From Adhaeribacter aerolatus (GTDB lineage Bacteria > Bacteroidota > Bacteroidia > Cytophagales > Hymenobacteraceae), in NCBI RefSeq assembly GCF_007991635.1, contig NZ_BJYS01000025.1, forward strand, positions 1 through 64,000: a stretch of DNA of 64,000 nucleotides, in the 5' to 3' direction. Below the pieces are notes generated by a model. The model saw only the letters and a program-made list of their open reading frames with translations. It did no database searches and was not told the DNA's origin. This document shows, in pieces, positions 11,535-22,328 of this stretch. Position 1 is the stretch's first letter; every line of letters starts with the position of its first letter. The position numbers were made by a program, and so were the translations under genes.

Positions 11535-12170
11535 TTATTTTAATGTTATCTTTTGAACACTTGCTTCTGTGATGTTGTAATATTTAGCTACCTCACTATA
11601 TTTTTTAAGATCTATATCAGGCTTACTGACCCTTCCATTTCTGAGTGTTCCAGGCAGAATTATTATTCTAAATCCTTGCTGATCTGTATAGTCTGCTACA
11701 TTAGCTAAGGTAGTAAAATCAAAGGTTCCATTCATAAATACCCTTAATACTGTTCTGGTATAATAAAAATTATAGTGTATCAAACCTTCTTTTAAGAAGG
11801 TTGTTTCGGGCAATGGCATCCAAACCTCACTATTATCATCTTCATTACCTAAATAATGATAAACTAACATTACATCACCTTCATTTATAGTGATGTTGGT
11901 TTTTAAAGCAGTATTTATTGCCGAAATGTCAGCGTATAAGGCATAACCATTAGCAGCATTAAAGGTATAGCCGATTTCAAAAACATTCGCTGTAGCAGAA
12001 GCTCCGGCTGGTCCCGCCGGCCCTTGCGCTCCAGGTGTTCCTGGCGTTCCGGCTGGTCCCTGCGGACCGGGTTCACCTTGAGGGCCTTCAGGGCCTTCGC
12101 AAGCCAAGCCTAAACCAAGGACTAAAATCATTAAAAAGTGGAAGATTCTAAAATGTAGGATTCTTTTCAT
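11535..12170 (-). CDS. Lipoprotein with short collagen-like Gly-X-Y tract
   Basis: Protein of 211 residues. The N-terminus has a basic start, hydrophobic core and lipobox L-G-L-A-C with Cys24. About eleven Gly-X-Y triplets follow directly (G-P-E, G-P-Q, G-E-P and so on, residues 26-58), then a domain of about 150 residues rich in aromatic and beta residues that I do not recognise. Similar short collagen-like stalks followed by a globular domain occur in surface lipoproteins of Bacteroidota. The globular part is coded in more AT-rich DNA than the neighbouring genes. Likely surface-exposed; function unknown. Confidence 0.75.
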   Translation of the reverse strand: MKRILHFRIFHFLMILVLGLGLACEGPEGPQGEPGPQGPAGTPGTPGAQGPAGPAGASATANVFEIGYTFNAANGYALYADISAINTALKTNITINEGDVMLVYHYLGNEDDNSEVWMPLPETTFLKEGLIHYNFYYTRTVLRVFMNGTFDFTTLANVADYTDQQGFRIIILPGTLRNGRVSKPDIDLKKYSEVAKYYNITEASVQKITLK

Positions 12171-12436
12171 AGTGGAAGATGTTATAAAAATATAATGTAT
12201 ATTAAAGAATAAATCTGAAACAAAAAAGCGTTATTCCTAAAGTTTAACGCTTTTGTGCAAAGTTTTAAAGCTATATTAATTTAAGCGCAAGTAAGTGCTA
12301 ATAAATTATTTAAAATAAGACGAGGCAGCACGAAGGCACAATATCAGAAAAAGCACCATGCTTCCTAAATACAACTGATGTTACGCCGTATTTTTAATCA
12401 AAAAGCTTTTAGTTTTAAAATAAGTTGCCCTATTCT

Positions 12437-13342
12437 CTAATACAGATAGAAATATCCTTCCCCAACCAAAGCACTTTTACCACCTACCTGCACCGAAGTT
12501 ATTTTTTTGTTTTCCTGCCCGATGGTTATGTACAAAAGGCTGGGACGGCCCATTTCGTAACCTTGCTCACAAATAAGGTGCGACGGAGATTCTGATGGTA
12601 CCACACCGTAATGTACCAGATAGCAGCCCAATGGGCCACAGGCGCTGCCGGTTGCCGGGTCTTCGGGAATGCCAAAAGCGGGTGCAAACATGCGGCCGTG
12701 CACCGCATGGGCCGGATTCTCGGTTTCGGTAGAGAACAGGAAAACACTTTCGGCGCCGAGGTGGCTTAACTGATTTTCCAGTACATCCTGCCGAAGTTTA
12801 GCTCTTTTTACGGCAGTTAAGGTTTTTAGCGGAATGTAAAAGAACGGCACGCCGCACGATACTACCTGGGCCGGATAATCCGTATCAATATCGGAAGGGT
12901 TTAGAGAAAGTAAATCGGCTAATATTTGGGTATTGGTAAACGTAGCGCCAAACTGGGGCAGCGGTTGCGCCATGGTAATCAAACCTAGCTTATCCGCCTT
13001 TTTCTCGAAATTTACGGTAATATCGCCTACGCCTTCTTCAAATATTAGCTGGTTGCCGGTTGGTTTTAAATAGCCTTGCTGCAGCAGCACGAAAGCAGTA
13101 CCAATGGTTGGGTGGCCGGCCATGGGCAGTTCTTTGCCCGGCGTAAAAATGCGCAGTTTAATGTCGTTGGCCGGGTTGGTTGGGGGCAGCACAAAAGTGG
13201 TTTCGGAGAGGTTAAGCTCTTTCGCAATTTTCTGCATCAGGTGCTCCGGTACGTCTTGCCCCTCCGGGAAAACTGCTAATTGATTACCACCAAAAACTTC
13301 TTCGGTAAAAACATCGGCCAAGTAATAGTGTAATTTTTTCAT
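12437..13342 (-). CDS. PhzF-family isomerase/epimerase
   Basis: Protein of about 301 residues from the ATG at 13342 (the frame runs 16 codons further). It has the PhzF blocks: F-G-G-N-Q-L-A-V-F at residues 17-25, L-N-L-S-E-T-T-F-V with likely catalytic Glu47, G-H-P-T-I-G-T-A-F-V near 73, and D-P-A-T-G-S-A-C-G-P-L near 230. Two similar halves, each a hotdog-like barrel, are typical. The family includes PhzF of phenazine synthesis and many enzymes of unknown substrate; there is no phenazine cluster here, so the substrate is open. It is separated from metZ by a terminator. Confidence 0.88.
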   Translation of the reverse strand: MKKLHYYLADVFTEEVFGGNQLAVFPEGQDVPEHLMQKIAKELNLSETTFVLPPTNPANDIKLRIFTPGKELPMAGHPTIGTAFVLLQQGYLKPTGNQLIFEEGVGDITVNFEKKADKLGLITMAQPLPQFGATFTNTQILADLLSLNPSDIDTDYPAQVVSCGVPFFYIPLKTLTAVKRAKLRQDVLENQLSHLGAESVFLFSTETENPAHAVHGRMFAPAFGIPEDPATGSACGPLGCYLVHYGVVPSESPSHLICEQGYEMGRPSLLYITIGQENKKITSVQVGGKSALVGEGYFYLY

Positions 13343-13388
13343 AGTTTGGGTTTGGATAGTTTCTGGTTTGAAGAAATTAAATAAACAC

Positions 13389-13446
13389 AAAGCCTGCTTC
13401 CCGGCTTCCGACTTAAAAAAAATACGGAAGAAAAGAAGCAGGCTTT
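13389..13446 (-). terminator. Terminator after metZ
   Basis: Perfect 12-bp arms (AAAGCCTGCTTC and GAAGCAGGCTTT) with a loop of about 34 bases. It lies just past the metZ stop and marks the likely end of the sulfur block. Confidence 0.7.
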
Positions 13447-13457
13447 GGGTTAGTTGT

Positions 13458-14633
13458 TTAGGCTGAAGCGGTCAGGGCTTGCTCAATATCCCCAATAATG
13501 TCGTTAATATTTTCCAGGCCAACGGAAATCCGGATGAGGCCATCAAATATTCCCACGGCGGCGCGTTCGTTCGGGGTAAGTTTAGAATGGGTCATAGAGG
13601 CCGGATGCGTAACCGTAGTACGGGTATCGCCGAGGTTAGCCGTTTTGGAAGCAATTTGCAACGCATCCATAAACTTCTGCGCCCGCTCGTAACCGCCCTT
13701 TACTACAAAGGTTACAATACCGCCGCCCTGCGTCATTTGCTTTTTAGCCAGTTCGTGCTGCGGGTGCGAAGGCAGCATCGGGTATAAAACCGATTCCATT
13801 TCGAGGTGGGTATCCAGGTGCTGGGCTAAAGCCAGCGCACTGCTGCAGTGGCGGTCCATGCGCACCGGCAGCGTTTCGAGGCTCTTCGATAATATCCAGG
13901 CATTAAACGGCGACAAAGCCGGGCCCGTGTGGCGCGAGAAAAACCGGATTTCGGAGATTAAATCTTTGCGGCCCACAATAACGCCCCCTAATACCCGGCC
14001 CTGGCCATCGATATATTTGGTGGCCGAATGGATAACCAAATCGGCACCGTACTGGATAGGCGTTTGCAGGTAAGGTGTGGCAAAACAATTATCAACGCTG
14101 AAAATAATATTATGCTTACGCGCCAGCTTGCCCAGCCATTCCAGGTCTATAAGCTCCAGTTGCGGGTTAGAAGGCGTTTCGATAAATATCATTTTGGTAT
14201 TTTCCTGGATCAGGCTTTCCCATTCTTCGGGCCGGGCGGCATCGGCGTAAGTACTGGTAATACCCCACTTAGGCAGCACGCGGGTAAGTAACTGGTGCGA
14301 AGAACCAAATACCGACCGGGAAGCCAAAATGTGATCGCCGGCTTGCAACAGCGCGCCAAATCCGGTAAATACTGCTGCCATCCCCGAGGCAAAGGCAAAA
14401 CCGTCTTCAGCACCTTCCAGCACGCACATTTTTTCGATAAACTCCGAAGTATTAGGATTAGAAAAACGGGAATAAATATTACCTTCCAGTTCGTCGGCAA
14501 ACAGCGCGCGGCCTTGTTCCGCCGATTCAAAAGTAAAGCTGGAAGTTAAATAAAGCGGTACCGAATGCTCGCGGAATTCGGTACGGGCAGCCTGGGTACG
14601 AATGGTTTGGGTTTCTTTATTTTTATTTTTCAA
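13458..14633 (-). CDS. metZ: O-succinylhomoserine sulfhydrylase (Cys/Met metabolism PLP enzyme)
   Basis: Protein of 391 residues of the Cys/Met-metabolism PLP family. The N-terminus has Y-S-R-F-S-N-P-N, and F-A-S-G-M-A-A contacts the cofactor. The PLP lysine is Lys206 in H-S-A-T-K-Y-I-D-G. Length and the R-T-Q-A-A-R-T-E-F-R-E-H-S start fit O-succinylhomoserine sulfhydrylase, which makes homocysteine from O-succinylhomoserine and sulfide in the cytosol. Cystathionine gamma-synthase or a lyase cannot be excluded, but the nearby sulfite reductase, the source of sulfide, favours sulfhydrylation. The start is TTG at 14633; I see no upstream ATG. It may have its own promoter. Confidence 0.82.
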   Translation of the reverse strand: MKNKNKETQTIRTQAARTEFREHSVPLYLTSSFTFESAEQGRALFADELEGNIYSRFSNPNTSEFIEKMCVLEGAEDGFAFASGMAAVFTGFGALLQAGDHILASRSVFGSSHQLLTRVLPKWGITSTYADAARPEEWESLIQENTKMIFIETPSNPQLELIDLEWLGKLARKHNIIFSVDNCFATPYLQTPIQYGADLVIHSATKYIDGQGRVLGGVIVGRKDLISEIRFFSRHTGPALSPFNAWILSKSLETLPVRMDRHCSSALALAQHLDTHLEMESVLYPMLPSHPQHELAKKQMTQGGGIVTFVVKGGYERAQKFMDALQIASKTANLGDTRTTVTHPASMTHSKLTPNERAAVGIFDGLIRISVGLENINDIIGDIEQALTASA

Positions 14634-14655
14634 TTTTATTCTGGTTTTAAAGTGG

Positions 14656-14663
14656 CAAAAATA
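14656..14663 (-). promoter_or_regulatory. Possible -7 element upstream of metZ
   Basis: TATTTTTG on the minus strand fits TAnnTTTG and lies 23 bases before the TTG start. No good -33 TTG is seen, so this is tentative. It would let metZ be transcribed apart from the upstream genes. Confidence 0.35.
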
Positions 14664-14738
14664 GGAGGAGCCTTCTCGAAATCCTACACTAATAGTTGTA
14701 TAATTATTTAATAATCAATATTTAACCTTTAAAACTGT

Positions 14739-16295
14739 TTAAAATACCGAGGTGTAAATATTGCGCAGACTCAGAATGATTACAACCAATCCTACAATTA
14801 TCATCATGGTTTTAACCGGCAGCCGGCGGGCAATAAGGGCAGCAAACGGCGCGGCTACGGTACCACCCAATACCAACCCCAATACCACCTGCCAGTGCGA
14901 AAAGCCAATCAGGGTAATAAACGTAACAGAGCTGGCAAACGACACAAAGAACTCGGTTAGGTTAACCGACCCAATGGTATACATGGGGTGCCGGCCGCTG
15001 GCAATGAGCGAAGAAGATACAATCGGGCCCCAGCCACCACCGCCCACCGAATCGAGGAAGCCGCCGGTTACGGCTAGTAAACCCATTTTGCGGATGCGTC
15101 TTTTCTTTATCGTTTGCCGGATGGCCTTGCGGATAATTATAAACCCAAGGGCCAGCGTGTAAATAGCTACTACCGGTTTTATAATATAGGCATACTCTTC
15201 GGCCGAAGTTAAAACATAAGCCCCCAGGATAGCGCCTAGTACGCCGGGCAGCAACAATGTTTTAAATAATTTGCTGTTTACGTTGCCAAAACGCAGGTGC
15301 ATTAAGCCCGATACACCGCTGGTAAATATTTCGGAGGCGTGAACGCTGGCACTAACGGCCGCCGGCGGAATACCAAACGAGAGCAGAAAAGTAGTAGCGC
15401 TTACCCCATAAGCCATACCCAAGGCGCCATCGATCATTTGGGCAATGAAACCGGCCAGCATAAAGTACAGAATATCCGACTCGATGCTGTTAGCGGCCTG
15501 CAAAGCATACCCGCCGATGGTGCTAAGCGGCATGAAACTAAAAAGCAGATGCCCAAAAACCATTAAGGCTATGGCCGACAGTCCGATGAGCAGGCGGTAA
15601 CGCCAACTATGTCGGATAAATGTTATCTTTTGGGTAGTAACCAGCGTTGGCTGTACCGGCGCCGGGGTTATAACAGATTCGGAAACGGCATCCGGCGCCA
15701 GCGAAGCAGTTACAGCGTTTAATTGCTTCACCTTTTCAGCAAAGTCGCCGGTTAAAGTAGTACGGATGCGTTCAATATTCTGGAGCAAACTATCCATTTC
15801 GGCCGGAAAGGTTTCGTTTAATACCTCTTTTACCCGTTTGGCCACGGTGGGCGATTTGCCGTTGGTCGAGATCGCAATTTTTAAATTCCCTTTCTGAACA
15901 ATGGAACTCAGGTAAAAATCACATTCCTGCGGGGTATCGGCTACGTTGGCTAATATTTTGCGGGCTCTGGCCACCTGTTTTACGTAGGTGTTCACGCCTT
16001 TATCGTTGGTTGCTGCAATAACCAGGTCTTTCCCGTTTAAATCAGTTTCTTCGAAAGGCTTTTGAATTAATTTAAGTTTTGGGTACTGGTTTGCCAGATC
16101 TCTAATCTCAGTTCGGATTTCGGGTGCCACTAAGGTTATGGTGGCCTCCGGGCTGTTGCGTAAAACGGCCGTAAGTTTTTCTTCGCCTACGAAACCGCCG
16201 CCAACTATCAGGGTATGTAAATCATGTAATTTCAGAAAAACCGGAAATAAGTGGTTTTCTGCGGCGGAAGTTTTCTGCTCAGTTTCGGTTAACAC
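14739..16295 (-). CDS. Fusion of precorrin-2 dehydrogenase (siroheme synthase N-domain) and TSUP transporter
   Basis: Protein of 518 residues with two parts. Residues 15-215 match the NAD-binding dehydrogenase/ferrochelatase domain of siroheme synthase: V-G-G-G-F-V-G-E-E-K at 31-40 and A-A-T-N-D with Asp98, the residue position used in CysG-like enzymes. Residues 228-518 hold about eight membrane helices of the TauE/SafE (TSUP) family, which moves sulfite, sulfonates or related anions. The uroporphyrinogen methyltransferase domain of CysG is absent, so another gene must supply precorrin-2. The start is GTG at 16295. It lies downstream of the siroheme-dependent reductase gene, which fits a role in cofactor supply and sulfur anion transport. 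Confidence 0.85.
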   Translation of the reverse strand: MLTETEQKTSAAENHLFPVFLKLHDLHTLIVGGGFVGEEKLTAVLRNSPEATITLVAPEIRTEIRDLANQYPKLKLIQKPFEETDLNGKDLVIAATNDKGVNTYVKQVARARKILANVADTPQECDFYLSSIVQKGNLKIAISTNGKSPTVAKRVKEVLNETFPAEMDSLLQNIERIRTTLTGDFAEKVKQLNAVTASLAPDAVSESVITPAPVQPTLVTTQKITFIRHSWRYRLLIGLSAIALMVFGHLLFSFMPLSTIGGYALQAANSIESDILYFMLAGFIAQMIDGALGMAYGVSATTFLLSFGIPPAAVSASVHASEIFTSGVSGLMHLRFGNVNSKLFKTLLLPGVLGAILGAYVLTSAEEYAYIIKPVVAIYTLALGFIIIRKAIRQTIKKRRIRKMGLLAVTGGFLDSVGGGGWGPIVSSSLIASGRHPMYTIGSVNLTEFFVSFASSVTFITLIGFSHWQVVLGLVLGGTVAAPFAALIARRLPVKTMMIIVGLVVIILSLRNIYTSVF

Positions 16296-16439
16296 GTATT
16301 TAGTTTTTGTTCCGCCCTTACCCTTCCTGGGTGAAGAAGGGTAGGTTTTAAAAGGGCAGGAAGATGATTTAGGGTAATCTGTATAAATATTATATTGCCT
16401 TTGGTATTAAAAGCTAGTGAATTTATTTGCTTGTTACGG

Positions 16440-17003
16440 TTATACAAGGTTTAACACCGGCGGCTTATCTTTTATCGTTTCCAACAACGACTGAATTAAT
16501 GTATCAAGTTCCTTCGCTGTAAATTCATCGGGAATATTGCCTTGGCGATTAATTTTACTTCTGGCTCCCGAAATTAAAAGTTTAGCGTGCTCACCAATTC
16601 TTGCGCCTAAAGTATTCATAATAAGAATCAAGGCTTCATAAGCTTTTTCTCCTTGCCCCGAAGCAACAATTAAGGCTACCGGTTTACCGGAGAAAATGGT
16701 AGTTGATACGGTCCATTCCAATGCGTTTTTCAACACGCCGGGTAAGCTAAACACGTATTCGGGGGTGCAAATAATAATTCCATCCGCGGCTTCTATTGCC
16801 TCCCGAAATTCTCTGACACTAACCGGAAGGTTTTCAGTATCTAAGTCGGGGTTGAAGTGGGGTAGCTCGGCAATGCGGTTATAAAGCTGAATGTCCAGGC
16901 TTTCCTGGTAATGTTCAGCTAAATAGCTTAGAAGTAATTCGTTTACAGAATTACTTCTAAGACTACCTGAAACTGCTATTATTTTCTTTCGGATTATTGC
17001 CAT
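16440..17003 (-). CDS. NADPH-dependent FMN reductase family protein
   Basis: Protein of 187 residues with a flavodoxin-like fold. S-G-S-L-R-S-N-S-V-N at residues 12-21 is the phosphate-binding loop, and T-P-E-Y-V-F-S-L-P-G-V-L-K-N-A-L-E-W near 80-97 is the typical FMN-reductase block. Members reduce FMN, quinones or metals with NAD(P)H. It lies 50 bases after the sulfite reductase gene in the same direction, so it could supply reduced flavin or electrons to sulfur metabolism; that partner role is inferred from position. Confidence 0.82.
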   Translation of the reverse strand: MAIIRKKIIAVSGSLRSNSVNELLLSYLAEHYQESLDIQLYNRIAELPHFNPDLDTENLPVSVREFREAIEAADGIIICTPEYVFSLPGVLKNALEWTVSTTIFSGKPVALIVASGQGEKAYEALILIMNTLGARIGEHAKLLISGARSKINRQGNIPDEFTAKELDTLIQSLLETIKDKPPVLNLV

Positions 17004-17053
17004 TTAAATTGATTTAACGCTTTCTAAACCGAAATATATAAGGATTTATAAGC

Positions 17054-19192
17054 TTAAACGTTTACTTTAAGTATTTCGGTTAAGAGTTCGGGGCGTTTTA
17101 CGGCGGCACCCCGGTAAGCGCTGGCAGCTTCCAGAAAACGGAAAGCATCAGCTAAATAAGAAGCCGCAAAATCAGCCGTCGGCTCATTCTGGTTAATCTG
17201 CATTACGTGCGTTCTGAAATCAGGCGCAAACGTAAAAGTGCCGTCCTTTACAAAATTGGCCTCAAAATCGTTAATGATGCCAATCTGGGTGTTGGCACTT
17301 ACGCCTTTGTCTAAGAGCAGCGCTTTGGCTGTGCCCACAAATACACTGTAGCTGTAATAAATGGCATCCGCGTTAGCGCCTTGGCTTAAAGCTTCGGCAG
17401 CCCATTCGGCTTTTTCTTCGGCATCAAATAACAAAGTAGCTACCAAATCAATCATTACGCCGGCGCACTCACCTACGCCAATAGCGGTGGCAAATTGTTC
17501 TACGTGGCCCCAGTCTACGTAATCGCCGGGCTGCAGCTTGGTTAAATCGGCCAATGGCTTTAATAACTGGTAAAAATAATTTTTACCCTGCCGGTCGTAA
17601 TATTCGTTAAAAAGCTCGCCTTCCTGACCATTTTTTTCAAAATCATCAAATAAAACCCGCAGAATATCCGGACCTTTTTTGGTAGGTACTTTTACTACCC
17701 GCTCGGCCAAACGGCCTTCGCCGTCGGCAACGGTACCACCGCCCAGCATTACCTGTAGCGCCGGAATAACGTGGGGCCCGTGCTTAATAGAACTGCCGTG
17801 GAAACCAATCTGGGCCAAACCATGCTGGCCGCAGGAGTTCATACAGCCGCTGATTTTTATATTGATATCGTTGTTGTAAATTAAATCCGGATACTCATCC
17901 AGCATCATTTTTTCCAGGACTTCGGCCAGGTTCATGCTGTTGGTAATACCCAGGTTACAGGTATCGGTACCGGGGCAGGTTGTAATATCGGTAGTGCTGT
18001 TAAAACCAGGTAAAGCAAAACCGAGCGTATTTAGCACGTGGAAAACGTAAGGCAAAGCCTCCTGACGGATATATTTAAACAGTAAGCCCTGATTAGGCGT
18101 AACGCGCACGTCGTCGGCGGCATATTCTTTTACCAGTTGGGCTAAAATACGGGCCTTGTCGGTTGGAATATCGCCTTTTAGTACCCGCACCCAAACCGCG
18201 TAAAAGCCTTTTTGTTTTTGCTCGGTTACGTTGGTTTTCAGCCAGTCGTTGTAGTGCTGCTGGTTCAAAATTTCCACCTTCGGTACTTCTTTTTCCGGGG
18301 CCGGTTCGGCCTGCGGTACACTGTTGCGGTCGAATACGTAAGATTTGGTTTTGTTTGCCGTGCGCTCCTGGGCAACCAGTTCCATAAAAGCATCAAACCC
18401 GATTTTTTGGATCAGATACTTCATACGCGCCTTGTTGCGGCTTACGCGTTCGCCGTGGCGGTCAAAAACCCGGATAACCGATTCGATAAACGGAATTACT
18501 TGGTCTTCGGGCAGAAACTCGTAAGCGGTGTAAGCCAACATCGGCTGAGCACCCAGGCCGCCACCTACTTTAACTTTAAAACCGCGTACTTCTTCGCCAT
18601 TCTCCAACTGCACTTTGGGGATTAACCCAATATCATGGATATAAGAAAAAGCCGTGTCTTCGTCGCTGGAGGAGAACGCAATTTTAAACTTGCGGCCCAT
18701 TTCCTGGCAAATAGGATTGCGCACGAAATATTTAAAGGTTTGGTGGGCGTACGATGATACGTCGAACGGTTCGTTTGGATCGATGCCGGCATTAGGCGAA
18801 GCGGTTACGTTCCGGACGGTGTTTCCGCAGGCTTCCCGCAAGGTAATATCGTCCTGGGCCAGCTTTTCCCATAGCTCCGGAGTACGATCCAGGCTCACAA
18901 AGTGAATCTGAATATCCTGCCGGGTTGTTAAATGCAGGTTTTTAGAAGCATATTCATCCGACACATCGCAGATGCGGTACCACTGCTTTACCGTTAAACG
19001 GCCGAATGGCAATTTAATCCGCACCATTTGTACGCCGGGCTGCCGCTGGCCGTAAATACCGCGGGTTAAGCGCAAACTCCGGAATTTTTCTTCGGGCATC
19101 TGGCCTCCCCGGAACTGCCGTATTTTTTTATCCAAATCGAGAATCTCTTTCTGAACAATCGGGTTTTCTAACTCGGAACGAAAACTAAGCAT
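17054..19192 (-). CDS. Siroheme/4Fe-4S sulfite (or nitrite) reductase with C-terminal HEPN-like extension
   Basis: Protein of 712 residues. Two half-domains of the nitrite/sulfite reductase family fill residues 1-540. T-T-R-Q-D near 89-93 contacts siroheme. The 4Fe-4S cysteines are Cys406 and Cys412 (C-P-G-T-D-T-C) and Cys450 and Cys454 (C-M-N-S-C). The enzyme reduces sulfite to sulfide, or nitrite to ammonia, with six electrons. The neighbouring homocysteine synthase, TSUP transporter and cysteine-rich leader peptides favour sulfite. Residues 560-712 form a helical extension that I read as HEPN-like. The ATG at 19192 follows a 340-nt leader with two attenuator-like units. Confidence 0.88.
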   Translation of the reverse strand: MLSFRSELENPIVQKEILDLDKKIRQFRGGQMPEEKFRSLRLTRGIYGQRQPGVQMVRIKLPFGRLTVKQWYRICDVSDEYASKNLHLTTRQDIQIHFVSLDRTPELWEKLAQDDITLREACGNTVRNVTASPNAGIDPNEPFDVSSYAHQTFKYFVRNPICQEMGRKFKIAFSSSDEDTAFSYIHDIGLIPKVQLENGEEVRGFKVKVGGGLGAQPMLAYTAYEFLPEDQVIPFIESVIRVFDRHGERVSRNKARMKYLIQKIGFDAFMELVAQERTANKTKSYVFDRNSVPQAEPAPEKEVPKVEILNQQHYNDWLKTNVTEQKQKGFYAVWVRVLKGDIPTDKARILAQLVKEYAADDVRVTPNQGLLFKYIRQEALPYVFHVLNTLGFALPGFNSTTDITTCPGTDTCNLGITNSMNLAEVLEKMMLDEYPDLIYNNDINIKISGCMNSCGQHGLAQIGFHGSSIKHGPHVIPALQVMLGGGTVADGEGRLAERVVKVPTKKGPDILRVLFDDFEKNGQEGELFNEYYDRQGKNYFYQLLKPLADLTKLQPGDYVDWGHVEQFATAIGVGECAGVMIDLVATLLFDAEEKAEWAAEALSQGANADAIYYSYSVFVGTAKALLLDKGVSANTQIGIINDFEANFVKDGTFTFAPDFRTHVMQINQNEPTADFAASYLADAFRFLEAASAYRGAAVKRPELLTEILKVNV

Positions 19193-19230
19193 TGGTATAT
19201 TTATTTATAATTTTTCTAGTATAAAACAAT

Positions 19231-19260
19231 AAAGCCTTTCCGCTAAATCAGAAAGGCTTT
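19231..19260 (-). terminator. Attenuator hairpin 2 of the sulfite reductase leader
   Basis: Perfect 10-bp stem on the minus strand (AAAGCCTTTC with GAAAGGCTTT, 10-base loop) followed by ATTGTTTTAT, so the T tract is weak. It lies 38 bases before the reductase ATG. Its left arm, plus 19251-19259, can pair instead with GAAGGGCTT inside leader ORF 2 (plus 19296-19304): 9 bp with one G-U. That alternative would be an antiterminator. Confidence 0.6.
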
Positions 19261-19274
19261 GATAACAGTTGCTT

Positions 19275-19358
19275 TTAGAATTTAAAAGCCAAAACAAGCC
19301 CTTCTGCCGGATTATGGCAGCAACAACACATTGCCCGCTTGTTTATAATATTTGCCAT
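19275..19358 (-). CDS. Cysteine-rich leader peptide 2 (four consecutive Cys)
   Basis: ORF of 27 codons plus stop, ATG at 19358, TAA ending at 19275. The peptide begins M-A-N-I-I-N-K-R-A-M-C-C-C-C-H-N-P and ends F-K-F. Codons 11-14 are TGT, TGT, TGC, TGC. A run of four Cys is very unlikely by chance and is what a ribosome stalling on scarce Cys-tRNA would need. It lies between two hairpins in the 5' leader of the sulfite reductase gene. The second in-frame ATG, just before the Cys run, is an alternative start. Confidence 0.7.
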   Translation of the reverse strand: MANIINKRAMCCCCHNPAEGLVLAFKF

Positions 19359-19376
19359 TTAATTTTATTCAGCCAT

Positions 19377-19416
19377 AAAAAAAGGCCTTCCCTGATTATA
19401 TGAGGAAAGACCTTTT
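19377..19416 (-). terminator. Attenuator hairpin 1 (terminator) of the sulfite reductase leader
   Basis: A 13-bp stem on the minus strand, AAAAGGTCTTTCC with GGAAGGCCTTTT including G-U pairs, ends in a run of seven Ts: a canonical intrinsic terminator inside a 5' leader. Part of the left arm, CTTTCCTC (plus 19402-19409), is perfectly complementary over 8 bases to GAGGAAAG at plus 19448-19455, which overlaps the stop codon of leader ORF 1. The two pairings exclude each other, as in classical attenuators. Confidence 0.75.
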
Positions 19417-19453
19417 AAAGTTTTACAGTTTGTAGTATTTATACAACCTTTCC

Positions 19454-19534
19454 TCACGCAAGCGCCATACAACACATACAACATGCAGGGCAGTTGTAGC
19501 TGGGGGCAACGAAAGAAAAAGTGATTATGGTCAT
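19454..19534 (-). CDS. Cysteine-rich leader peptide 1 (five clustered Cys)
   Basis: ORF of 26 codons plus stop, ATG at 19534, TGA ending at 19454. The peptide ends Y-N-C-P-A-C-C-M-C-C-M-A-L-A, with five cysteines in eight residues. A ribosome stalled on these codons would leave the GAGGAAAG segment next to the stop free to form an antiterminator. A ribosome reaching the stop would cover it and let the terminator form. The ORF is short and hydrophobic, has no homology I recognise, and lies about 340 bases before the reductase start. Confidence 0.75.
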   Translation of the reverse strand: MTIITFSFVAPSYNCPACCMCCMALA

Positions 19535-19552
19535 TGTTTTATTTAATTTCCT

Positions 19553-19561
19553 GTAAAGATA
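19553..19561 (-). promoter_or_regulatory. Possible -7 element of the sulfite reductase leader
   Basis: TATCTTTAC on the minus strand differs from TAnnTTTG at the last base. It would start the leader transcript some 10 bases before leader ORF 1. No convincing -33 box is seen. Confidence 0.35.
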
Positions 19562-19688
19562 AAATGCCTATACGACTTTTCCGCCTGTTTGGCTAAAAAA
19601 TTTTAATATTTAACGTACTTACTTACATATTATTTAATGTGTATATAAATAGTAAAATGGCTTAGGTAGTTTTCCGGCGGCCCATTCT

Positions 19689-19696
19689 TAATTTTG
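19689..19696 (+). promoter_or_regulatory. Possible -7 element of the kynU promoter
   Basis: TAATTTTG fits TAnnTTTG exactly and lies about 100 bases before the kynU ATG. The -33 region has no TTG. It is divergent from the sulfite reductase leader. Confidence 0.4.
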
Positions 19697-19796
19697 CAGC
19701 AGCTATTTTACTTCTGTAAAAAAATATCGGATGTGGGACTTTTGCGTTGTTGTTGCGTAAGCCTGAAGAAGCCCAAACGCCGAATTATTTTAATTT

Positions 19797-21089
19797 ATGA
19801 ATTACCAGCATTTAGAATACCAGAATACCTTAGACTTTGCCAGAGATTTAGATCGCCAGGATGCTTTACACCACTTCCGTGACCAGTTTTATATACCGTC
19901 GGTAAACAACAAAGATTCTATTTATTTATGCGGTAATTCGCTGGGGTTACAGCCTAAAACTGCCCGTATTGCCGCCGAGCAGGAGTTTTGGGACTGGCAG
20001 AATTTAGGGGTGGAAGGCCACTTTCATGGTACCAATCCGTGGGTGCATTACCACGAATATTTGCAGGAAAAAGAAGCCCGGGTGGTAGGGGCGCAACCCG
20101 ACGAGGTAGTGGTAATGAATAACCTGACCACTAACCTGCACCTGATGCTGGTATCTTTTTACCGGCCCACGCCCTTTCGATATAAAATTATTACCGAAGC
20201 CGGTGCTTTCCCCTCAGACCAGTATGCCCTGGAAACCCAAGTAAGATACCATGGCCTGGATACCGACGAAGCGATTATTGAGCTGGCGCCCCGGCCCGGC
20301 GAACATACATTGCACACCGAAGATATTCTGGCGGCCATTCGGGAACACGCCGACGAACTGGCGCTGATTATGATGGGCGGCATTAATTACTATACCGGAC
20401 AGGTTTTTGATATGGCGGCTATTACGCGCGCAGGCCACGAGGCCGGCGCGCAGGTGGGTTTCGATTTGGCCCATGCGGCCGGCAATATTTTACTAAACCT
20501 GCACGACTGGGATGTAGATTTTGCGGTGTGGTGCACTTATAAATATTTAAATTCCGGACCAGGTGGTGTTGGTGGCACCTTTGTGCACGCCAGACACGCC
20601 CACGCTTCGGGCATACCGCGGTTTGGTGGCTGGTGGGGACATAACAAAGAAGAACGATTTCAGATGCGGAAAGGCTTTAAACCCATGCCGGGTGCGGCCG
20701 GCTGGCAGTTAAGCAATGCTTCTATCTTCCCGATGGCTATTCATAAGGCCTCTTTGGATATTTTTGATGCAGCTACTATGCCGGCTTTACGGGCGAAAAG
20801 CGAAAAACTGACCGGTTATTTAGAATATTTGATTAACCACCTCGGCGCTACCCAGGAAATACTCGAAATTATAACGCCCGCCGATCCGGCCTGGCGCGGT
20901 TGCCAGTTATCGTTGCTGGTACATCAAAATGGGCGGCAGGTGTTCGAAAAGCTTACCCAGGCCGGGGTAATCCTGGATTGGCGCGAGCCCAACGTTATCC
21001 GCGTAGCGCCCACCCCGCTTTACAATACATTTGAAGATGTTTTTTGCTTTGCCGAAATATTGCGGCAGAGCCTGGCGGTAAAAGATTAG
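19797..21089 (+). CDS. kynU: Kynureninase
   Basis: Protein of 430 residues, full length for kynureninase, a PLP enzyme that cleaves kynurenine or 3-hydroxykynurenine to anthranilate or 3-hydroxyanthranilate plus alanine. I-Y-L-C-G-N-S-L-G-L-Q-P near residues 41-52 is the family's opening motif, G-F-D-L-A-H-A-A-G-N near 220 holds the cofactor aspartate, and the PLP lysine is Lys249 in W-C-T-Y-K-Y-L-N-S-G-P-G-G. Kynurenine 3-monooxygenase is encoded 3.2 kb downstream on the same strand, so the pair probably serves tryptophan breakdown or NAD synthesis via quinolinate. Confidence 0.93.
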   Translation: MNYQHLEYQNTLDFARDLDRQDALHHFRDQFYIPSVNNKDSIYLCGNSLGLQPKTARIAAEQEFWDWQNLGVEGHFHGTNPWVHYHEYLQEKEARVVGAQPDEVVVMNNLTTNLHLMLVSFYRPTPFRYKIITEAGAFPSDQYALETQVRYHGLDTDEAIIELAPRPGEHTLHTEDILAAIREHADELALIMMGGINYYTGQVFDMAAITRAGHEAGAQVGFDLAHAAGNILLNLHDWDVDFAVWCTYKYLNSGPGGVGGTFVHARHAHASGIPRFGGWWGHNKEERFQMRKGFKPMPGAAGWQLSNASIFPMAIHKASLDIFDAATMPALRAKSEKLTGYLEYLINHLGATQEILEIITPADPAWRGCQLSLLVHQNGRQVFEKLTQAGVILDWREPNVIRVAPTPLYNTFEDVFCFAEILRQSLAVKD

Positions 21090-21172
21090 ATAAAAGTATA
21101 TTTTGCCTGCTTGTGGAGACAAATATCACCTAAGGAAGAAATATTGCTGCCTTAAACTAATAGTGAGCCAGG

Positions 21173-21670
21173 CTACCCAAACAAGGTTAACTGGTGGGTG
21201 CCGTTTATTTTACGTTCGTGGGCCAGCAGCCATTTCTTGCGCCATAAACCGCCGGCATAGCCTACCATTTGCCCGTCTGCGCCGATAACCCGGTGGCAGG
21301 GACGGATGAGTAATAATTTATTTTTGCCGTTGGCGCTGCCTACTGCCCGAATGGCGGCTAAGTTGCCTAATTGTACCGATAAATCGTAGTAAGACAAGGT
21401 GGTGCCGAAATCGATTTTTTCGAGTTGGTGCCATACCTGCTCCTGGAAGTTAGTGCCCGATGAAGCCAGGGGTAGCTGGAATGCTTTACGGGCACCGGCA
21501 AAATATTCGGCTAGTTGTTGTAAACAGTCGGTGAGGCAGGCTGGCAAATCAGGGGCATTAGGTTCTGCAGTTTCTTCCGTAAAGAGCACCGATACAATGG
21601 CCTCTTCCGTAGCGGTTATGGCTACTGTACCAATCGGAGAGGGGTAATAGGCCCGGAATAGTTTATCCAT
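21173..21670 (-). CDS. ogt: Methylated-DNA--protein-cysteine methyltransferase
   Basis: Protein of 165 residues. The suicide-acceptor motif P-C-H-R-V-I has Cys125, preceded by the recognition helix region A-I-R-A-V-G-S-A-N-G-K-N. The N-terminal half is the small ribonuclease-like domain of the Ogt/MGMT family. It removes alkyl groups from O6-alkylguanine in DNA. The length fits Ogt rather than Ada, and no Ada zinc domain is present. It is divergent from the AlkB-like gene with 73 bases between the starts, suggesting a shared control region for alkylation repair. Confidence 0.92.
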   Translation of the reverse strand: MDKLFRAYYPSPIGTVAITATEEAIVSVLFTEETAEPNAPDLPACLTDCLQQLAEYFAGARKAFQLPLASSGTNFQEQVWHQLEKIDFGTTLSYYDLSVQLGNLAAIRAVGSANGKNKLLLIRPCHRVIGADGQMVGYAGGLWRKKWLLAHERKINGTHQLTLFG

Positions 21671-21743
21671 TGGTAAGCTGTTTTAAGGTAAGAAAGCGGC
21701 AAGATAGCGATCCAAATGAGAAATAAAAGAGAACCGGCCAGAA

Positions 21744-22328
21744 ATGAAAACCAAATTAGCCTTACCCAATGCGGAAATATATTTTTGGCCGCAGTTTTTT
21801 AGCCCCAGACAAAGCAATTATTACCTAACCGAACTTACCCGCACGGTAGCCTGGCGGCAGGATAAAATAAGAATGTTCGGGAAAGAATTTTTGCTACCCC
21901 GTTTAACGGCCTGGTACGGCGATGCCGGTAAAAGCTACCAATATTCTGGTATTAGTATGAAGCCTTTGCCCTGGCTACCCGTTTTGCTACCACTGAAAGA
22001 AGTGGTGGAAGCGGCCGCAGGTCATAGGTTTAACAGTGTGCTGCTAAATTATTATCGCCACGGGCAAGACAGTATGGGCTGGCACAGCGACGATGAACCC
22101 GAATTAGGCCTAAACCCGGTTATTGCTTCCGTTTCGTTTGGGCAAGACAGGCGTTTCGATTTACGGCACCGGCAAGACAAAACGGTTCCGAAGCAATCGG
22201 TATGGCTGGAAGATGGTAGTCTGCTGCTCATGCAGGGCGCAACGCAACATTACTGGCAACACCAGCTACCAAAATCCGCCAAAGCCCCCGGTACCCGCCT
22301 GAATCTGACTTTTCGTACGATAAAATAA
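21744..22328 (+). CDS. AlkB-family 2-oxoglutarate/Fe(II) dioxygenase
   Basis: Protein of 194 residues. The iron ligands are visible as His114 and Asp116 in G-W-H-S-D-D-E and His173 in Y-W-Q-H-Q-L-P. Arg185 and Arg191 in R-L-N-L-T-F-R bind 2-oxoglutarate. The core N-Y-Y-R-H-G-Q-D-S-M-G-W-H is typical of ALKBH2/3-like members, which demethylate 1-methyladenine and 3-methylcytosine in DNA or RNA. Together with the divergent ogt gene it forms a small alkylation-repair pair. The ATG at 21744 is well placed. Confidence 0.9.
   Translation: MKTKLALPNAEIYFWPQFFSPRQSNYYLTELTRTVAWRQDKIRMFGKEFLLPRLTAWYGDAGKSYQYSGISMKPLPWLPVLLPLKEVVEAAAGHRFNSVLLNYYRHGQDSMGWHSDDEPELGLNPVIASVSFGQDRRFDLRHRQDKTVPKQSVWLEDGSLLLMQGATQHYWQHQLPKSAKAPGTRLNLTFRTIK

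Follow-up and report, generated by a model that had tools for sequence, protein, structure and literature searches.

The leader upstream of the sulfite reductase gene in the window (the whole stretch of 64,000 nucleotides that was analysed) very probably consists of tandem ribosome-mediated transcription attenuators that read the supply of cysteinyl-tRNA, to judge from its sequence. Two units, each with a cysteine-rich open reading frame (ORF) followed by a predicted intrinsic terminator, fit within the 342 nt upstream of the sulfite reductase start (19192). The features of the leader and of the genes downstream are as follows.

19554-19561, minus strand: candidate -7 promoter element TATCTTTA, 19 nt upstream of leader ORF 1
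19454-19534, minus strand: leader ORF 1, MTIITFSFVAPSYNCPACCMCCMALA, 26 amino acids, with Cys codons at 19490-19492, 19478-19483 and 19469-19474
19445-19456, minus strand: antiterminator segment 2 of leader 1, TGAGGAAAGGTT, its first base at the stop codon
19377-19416, minus strand: predicted terminator 1, a 14-bp stem (19380-19416) and a run of seven T (19377-19383)
19275-19358, minus strand: leader ORF 2, MANIINKRAMCCCCHNPAEGLVLAFKF, with Cys codons at 19317-19328
19296-19306, minus strand: antiterminator segment 2 of leader 2, CAGAAGGGCTT, within ORF 2 and downstream of its Cys codons
19231-19260, minus strand: predicted terminator 2, a 12-bp stem with a 6-nt loop and the T-rich tail ATTGTTTTAT
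17054-19192, minus strand: sulfite/nitrite reductase hemoprotein, 712 amino acids, the gene predicted to be controlled (Pfam NIR_SIR, 1.6e-43, and NIR_SIR_ferr, 1.6e-35, both above cut-offs)
16440-17003, minus strand: FMN reductase family protein (Pfam FMN_red, 2.7e-31), the next gene, probably in the same operon
14739-16295, minus strand: fusion of a siroheme-synthase N-terminal domain and a TauE/SafE domain
13458-14633, minus strand: MetZ-like O-succinylhomoserine sulfhydrylase (PRK08133, 2.7e-157, barely over the cut-off)

The original prediction concerned the first unit. The 26-residue minus-strand ORF with five Cys in eight residues was found as described, with the five Cys within residues 15-22, and GAGGAAAG (19448-19455) overlaps the TGA stop codon and is, as claimed, perfectly complementary to CTTTCCTC (19402-19409) in the hairpin's left arm. 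The hairpin was given as 13 bp with seven T; the T run is correct but the stem has 14 pairs. The prediction overlooked the second full attenuator (ORF 2 and terminator 2) directly downstream of the first, which lies within the 261 nt between the end of ORF 1 and the sulfite reductase gene; the other cysteine leaders of the genome and the broader distribution of such leaders also lie beyond its account. The nearest gene upstream of the leader, which encodes kynureninase, is divergent (plus strand, from 19797), so the hairpins are not the 3' end of a neighbour on the same strand. The candidate promoter element TATCTTTA, which we take to be of the TAnnTTTG type of -7 element of Bacteroidota, forms an aligned block within the genus, with the version TATATTTG in one genome (G034). 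An Rfam scan of positions 12000-22000 gave two matches, both far below cut-offs and outside the leader, so a known riboswitch appears to be absent from it: the SAM-I riboswitch model (RF00162) has no match in the leader, and Bacteroid-trp (RF01692), which is presumably a trp leader, has none in positions 12000-22000 (E<=1) or in the eight genomes of the genus. The sulfite reductase, FMN reductase, siroheme-synthase/TauE fusion and MetZ-like genes are separated by gaps of 50, 144 and 105 nt. The top NCBIfam match of the sulfite reductase protein is PRK09567 (8.3e-70, under the model cut-off), and the fusion is a single protein with a siroheme-synthase NAD-binding domain and a TauE/SafE sulfite exporter domain.

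Classical amino-acid attenuators, such as those of trp and his, combine a short ORF containing regulatory codons, an intrinsic terminator, a competing antiterminator and a biosynthetic gene. The original prediction assigned this architecture to the leader with cysteine as the signal, an assignment that conservation in the genus and the classical geometry support. Each unit has an ORF with a run of Cys codons, a predicted intrinsic terminator between ORF and gene, an antiterminator that would exclude the terminator and a spacing that would free segment 2. We infer that the leader is transcribed and that in each unit a ribosome trails RNA polymerase through the short ORF. With ample cysteine, the ribosome would clear the Cys codons and block pairing by segment 2, the terminator would form and transcription would end. 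With scarce cysteine, the ribosome would stall at the Cys codons before it reached segment 2; that segment would be free to pair with the terminator's left arm and allow transcription to continue. Sulfur assimilation would probably be turned on only in cysteine shortage. Because the units are in series, their stop probabilities would be multiplied, which would keep basal expression low and make the response steeper. A ribosome at the stop codon of leader 2 would already be beyond segment 2; therefore, termination there would need melting in passage or re-formation of the 1:2 pairing. Compared to the trp and his attenuators, the leader in the window would sense cysteine and has two units for the same residue in series, and the protector pairing 1:2 is weak, with p<=0.05 in 10 of the 43 leaders described below. 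If the model is correct, it would offer an answer to how many Bacteroidota match sulfur assimilation to cysteine demand, through RNA, by classical attenuation with intrinsic terminators, and attenuators for the same signal in series would be a natural means to steepen a response.

The competing pairings were evaluated against dinucleotide shuffles. The predicted energy of the pairing between segment 2 and the left arm of its own terminator is -14.9 kcal/mol in leader 1 and -16.6 kcal/mol in leader 2, and in each case all 200 shuffles are worse. The comparison was extended to 43 leaders, of which 11 lie upstream of sulfite reductase and 11 in the cysH region within the genus, 9 belong to a sample of the phylum and 12 to named loci; the second leaders of G024, G009, G014 and G003 have a terminator below the score cut and are therefore not among the 43. 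The antiterminator (2:3) pairing is significant at p<=0.05 in 29 of the 43 leaders and at p<=0.01 in 21, and 14 fail. With a fixed window of 50 nt, 26 of the 43 leaders are significant versus 19 of 355 control terminators (5.4%); the leaders of the genus are not independent of each other, and the count outside the genus, 8 of 21 (Fisher 2.7e-5) with 13 of 21 failing, is the safer figure. When arms were permuted among the 43 leaders, the observed sum of pairing was reached in 0 of 20,000 permutations. In the 29 significant leaders, segment 2 starts 4-19 nt (median 14) past the last Cys codon. In leaders 1 and 2 of the window it starts 13 and 12 nt, respectively, past that codon's first base; an offset of 12-13 nt corresponds approximately to the leading edge of a stalled ribosome.

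A search of 120 genomes of the family Hymenobacteraceae found the reductase (E<=1e-60) in 25, namely the eight of the genus set, which includes the source genome, and 17 of Pontibacter. The original prediction looked to close relatives for conservation of the ORF and its Cys codons and for compensatory changes in both pairings, and would have been refuted by a lack of conservation there; it withstood this test. A Cys-rich upstream ORF (uORF) and a terminator precede sulfite reductase in all eight genomes of the genus, as tandem units in seven and a single unit in G029. The Cys clusters of both ORFs are kept, with TGT/TGC swaps at aligned codons, and most other residues vary. Pair counts were taken from leader 2 only, because the MAFFT alignment misplaces terminator 1 when it brings the genus's two clades together. 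Covariation within the genus appears modest: helix 3:4 of leader 2 has a covariation score above all 500 shuffles and two double-sided pair changes, not above the shuffle mean of 2.3, and for helix 2:3 the score is equalled or exceeded by 36 of 500 shuffles and one slid control. These comparisons also bear on the idea, to which we give very little credence, that the Cys-rich peptides act themselves, for example as small metal- or thiol-binding proteins, with the hairpins as ordinary terminators of small genes. The dense CCxCC motifs are reminiscent of metal-binding motifs; however, only Cys is kept between groups (the clusters are CCMCC, CCGFCC, CCCC and CCCMCCC), while the other residues and the spacing are not, and the sequence downstream of the Cys codons complements an arm of the terminator.

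The attenuation model also draws on the frequency of Cys-rich uORFs at terminators in 94 loci (three of 97 were skipped). Among terminators within 450 nt upstream of sulfite reductase, 20 of 48 carry a uORF with at least three Cys in eight residues, compared to 11 of the 363 other terminators in these loci, a 13.8-fold enrichment (Fisher 1.3e-13); the runners-up are Asn and Thr (4.7-fold each) and Met (4.3-fold). The leaders might sense both sulfur amino acids, if ribosomes that stall at Met codons next to the Cys run also contribute, a tentative reading that is on balance doubtful and that extends the attenuation model more than it opposes it. In 60 leader peptides (the 43 leaders plus 17 of Pontibacter, with the start Met excluded), Met makes up 68 of 374 non-Cys residues within three residues of the Cys run versus 26 of 1156 elsewhere (odds ratio 9.7), and the operon holds a MetZ-like gene. 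Kinship among the 60 peptides, however, inflates this count, internal ATG codons may be starts (in 28 of 60 peptides Met sits at position -1 or -2 relative to the run), and the enrichment of Met at terminators before sulfite reductase amounts to four cases.

Attenuation itself is textbook knowledge, and the known cys leaders are single and from other phyla; the new element here appears to be tandem cysteine attenuators with intrinsic terminators, in Bacteroidota. Actinobacterial cys leader peptides are encoded by short ORFs that lie ahead of cys operons and contain Cys-codon runs (Seliverstov 2005, PMC1262725; Canestrari 2020, via PMC9031893 and PMC13236596), and the excerpts consulted of these sources (PMC1262725, PMC9031893, PMC13236596) describe no obvious terminator and propose Rho or translational action. 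The leader in the window shares with them, as so described, the Cys-codon runs before cys operons, and differs from their class of poly-Cys uORFs without an intrinsic terminator in that each of its units has a terminator and a competing pairing. According to the portion consulted of PMC8632094, uORFC-8-2, before cysS of Rhodobacterales, is a predicted attenuator in which a uORF with Cys codons is followed by an intrinsic terminator; it differs from the leader in the window by its two Cys codons, the single unit described, the tRNA synthetase gene downstream and its occurrence in alphaproteobacteria. Bacteroid-trp is a predicted cis-regulatory RNA of Bacteroidetes (PMC2864571, in part) that corresponds to a different amino acid and, as stated above, its model is unmatched in the genus. 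The Salmonella mgtCBR leader contains tandem attenuators with two short ORFs (PMC3641672, in the parts consulted), but senses two signals, ATP and proline, whereas both units in the window would read Cys. Leader-peptide attenuation before amino-acid operons has been described in F. psychrophilum and may include a cysteine case (PMC9723704, in excerpt). Among the literature matches listed, in the excerpts that they provided, no tandem cysteine attenuators for the same residue and no cysteine attenuators of Bacteroidota were found; Lopatovskaya et al. 2010 (cited in PMC4833913) may bear on this.

The leaders of Pontibacter are of a different kind. Poly-Cys uORFs precede sulfite reductase in all 17 genomes, where a terminator scan gave no convincing match behind the uORFs, and Rho or translational control may operate there. 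Mycobacterial poly-Cys uORFs have been described as acting on downstream translation. Applied to the leader in the window, translational control would mean that ribosomes stalled on the uORFs open the sulfite reductase start or lead to re-initiation at it, with the hairpins incidental. Besides Pontibacter, this reading could appeal to the metY genes of the family (56 of 60 genomes searched were positive and the best 30 were made into loci), since a Cys-rich uORF precedes metY in 25 of the 28 readable loci (25 of 28 by each of two gene-calling rules) and a terminator was called in 1 of the 28 upstream regions. It is nevertheless highly unlikely for the window, as the uORF in its genus is coupled to a terminator with a T run and to a competing pairing, and ORF 1 stops far from the gene with the whole second unit between.

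A SAM-I aptamer (RF00162), absent from the leader in the window, is present in the sulfite reductase leaders of all 17 Pontibacter genomes (58-75 bits) and, together with a Cys-rich uORF, upstream of metY (O-acetylhomoserine sulfhydrylase, TIGR01326, 4.3e-198) in all eight genomes of the window's genus, where 7-8 nt separate the end of the aptamer from the start of the uORF. The eight other aptamer sites examined in the genus have no Cys uORF within 300 nt; seven of these are followed 87-100 nt on by a gene with a metH-like opening (TIGR02082 in the source genome's own copy) and the eighth has no called gene. In G029 a SAM-I aptamer lies directly upstream of a metZ-like gene (L298, C1:972014), with no uORF; the sulfite reductase gene lies about 1.8 kb ahead of it. 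The start of this metZ-like gene is 65 nt from the GGCAACC mark, compared to 66-71 nt in the metY leaders, and this similar spacing without a uORF is a hint that the target of the aptamer is whichever start codon follows it. SAM-I aptamers were found in all 12 of the metY loci from other genera that were scanned with Rfam (12 of 22). In 28 of 29 cases (12 metY and 17 Pontibacter) a poly-Cys or dense-Cys uORF opens with a start codon that follows the aptamer by 6-9 nt. The Cys residues cluster at the ORF's end in 27 of these, and 17 residues before that in L015; the exception is L021, where an overlapping ATG precedes the Cys ORF, which itself begins 8 nt past the aptamer. In L332 and L334, uORF and metY are separated by a gene of about 230 amino acids, and another ORF is also there in L338. 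Base composition behind the 29 SAM-linked uORFs (behind a 4-residue ORF in L021) shows C over G at 0.30 versus 0.22, a bias too mild to prove Rho sites. Examples of the combination include L299 (source genome, from C8:53276), L301, L294-L297, L305 and L310, and L010-L026 of Pontibacter.

The SAM-I and Cys-uORF leader is possibly a two-input riboregulator. We consider it about an even chance that the sulfur regulon of the family is under two-input RNA control, in which a SAM-I aptamer 6-9 nt before the start codon would gate translation of the Cys-rich uORF and thereby combine SAM and cysteinyl-tRNA signals (at metY in the window's genus and others, and at sulfite reductase in Pontibacter), with the operon in the window under tandem attenuators for cysteine only. 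If so, these leaders would form an RNA device that takes two metabolites as inputs; no description of a SAM-I aptamer combined with a Cys uORF was found among the literature matches listed.

Cysteine leaders also occur elsewhere in the source genome. A degenerate pattern of four consecutive Cys codons has 86 matches there versus 23 for the reversed control, and when the flanks of all 86 were scanned, a Cys-rich ORF with a terminator was found at two sites, leader 2 of the window and MQTQNLLPTPMMPATCCCCMAVPCTERLMVGVI, which sits upstream of rhodanese-cysH; the metY leader described above is among the matches as well, as a third site (C8:53479). The pattern is blind to leaders such as ORF 1, which lack four consecutive Cys codons. 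In G014, G009, G024 and G003 a tandem pair lies upstream of a row of genes encoding proteins of 310, 145 and 380 amino acids, followed by cysH. In G014 the 310-residue protein is nearest to cysteine synthase CysM (cysM/PALP; 2.5e-86, under the cut-off of that model), and the other two are of the JAB and ThiF-rhodanese families. The row CysM-like, JAB, ThiF-rhodanese, cysH (L280-L283; the family assignments are from L280 alone) resembles a pathway that makes cysteine with the help of a carrier protein. The cysH region has one unit each in G029 and G019, and in G034 the contig stops before the informative part.

Across Bacteroidota the distribution of the motif is patchy. The reductase was found in 48 of 296 genomes of the phylum sample, and 46 upstream regions were read, omitting the source genome and G317, which is cut at a contig end. 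The full filter (at least three Cys in eight residues, and a terminator above the score cut within 60 nt) was passed by 9 of these 46 (G198, G331, G217, G276, G183, G371, G149, G158 and G336). Of 22 genomes in family f7, none passed with 1000 nt upstream read; in at least two of these genomes cysH comes ahead of sulfite reductase, and a scan of a 15-kb neighbourhood in one (G323) gave no Cys leader match. The best 80 named loci were taken and three duplicates of genomes already included were dropped; 12 of the remaining 77 passed, including Pedobacter, Mucilaginibacter, Rhodocytophaga, Chitinophaga and a Cyclobacteriaceae MAG. The upstream sequence is shorter than 450 nt in at least three of the 77, and the leader of L225 is located about 750 nt before the gene.

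The Cys codons in the ORFs of the 43 leaders are 122 TGT versus 72 TGC, the opposite preference to that of the ORFs of at least 250 amino acids in the window, which have 31 TGT versus 60 TGC.
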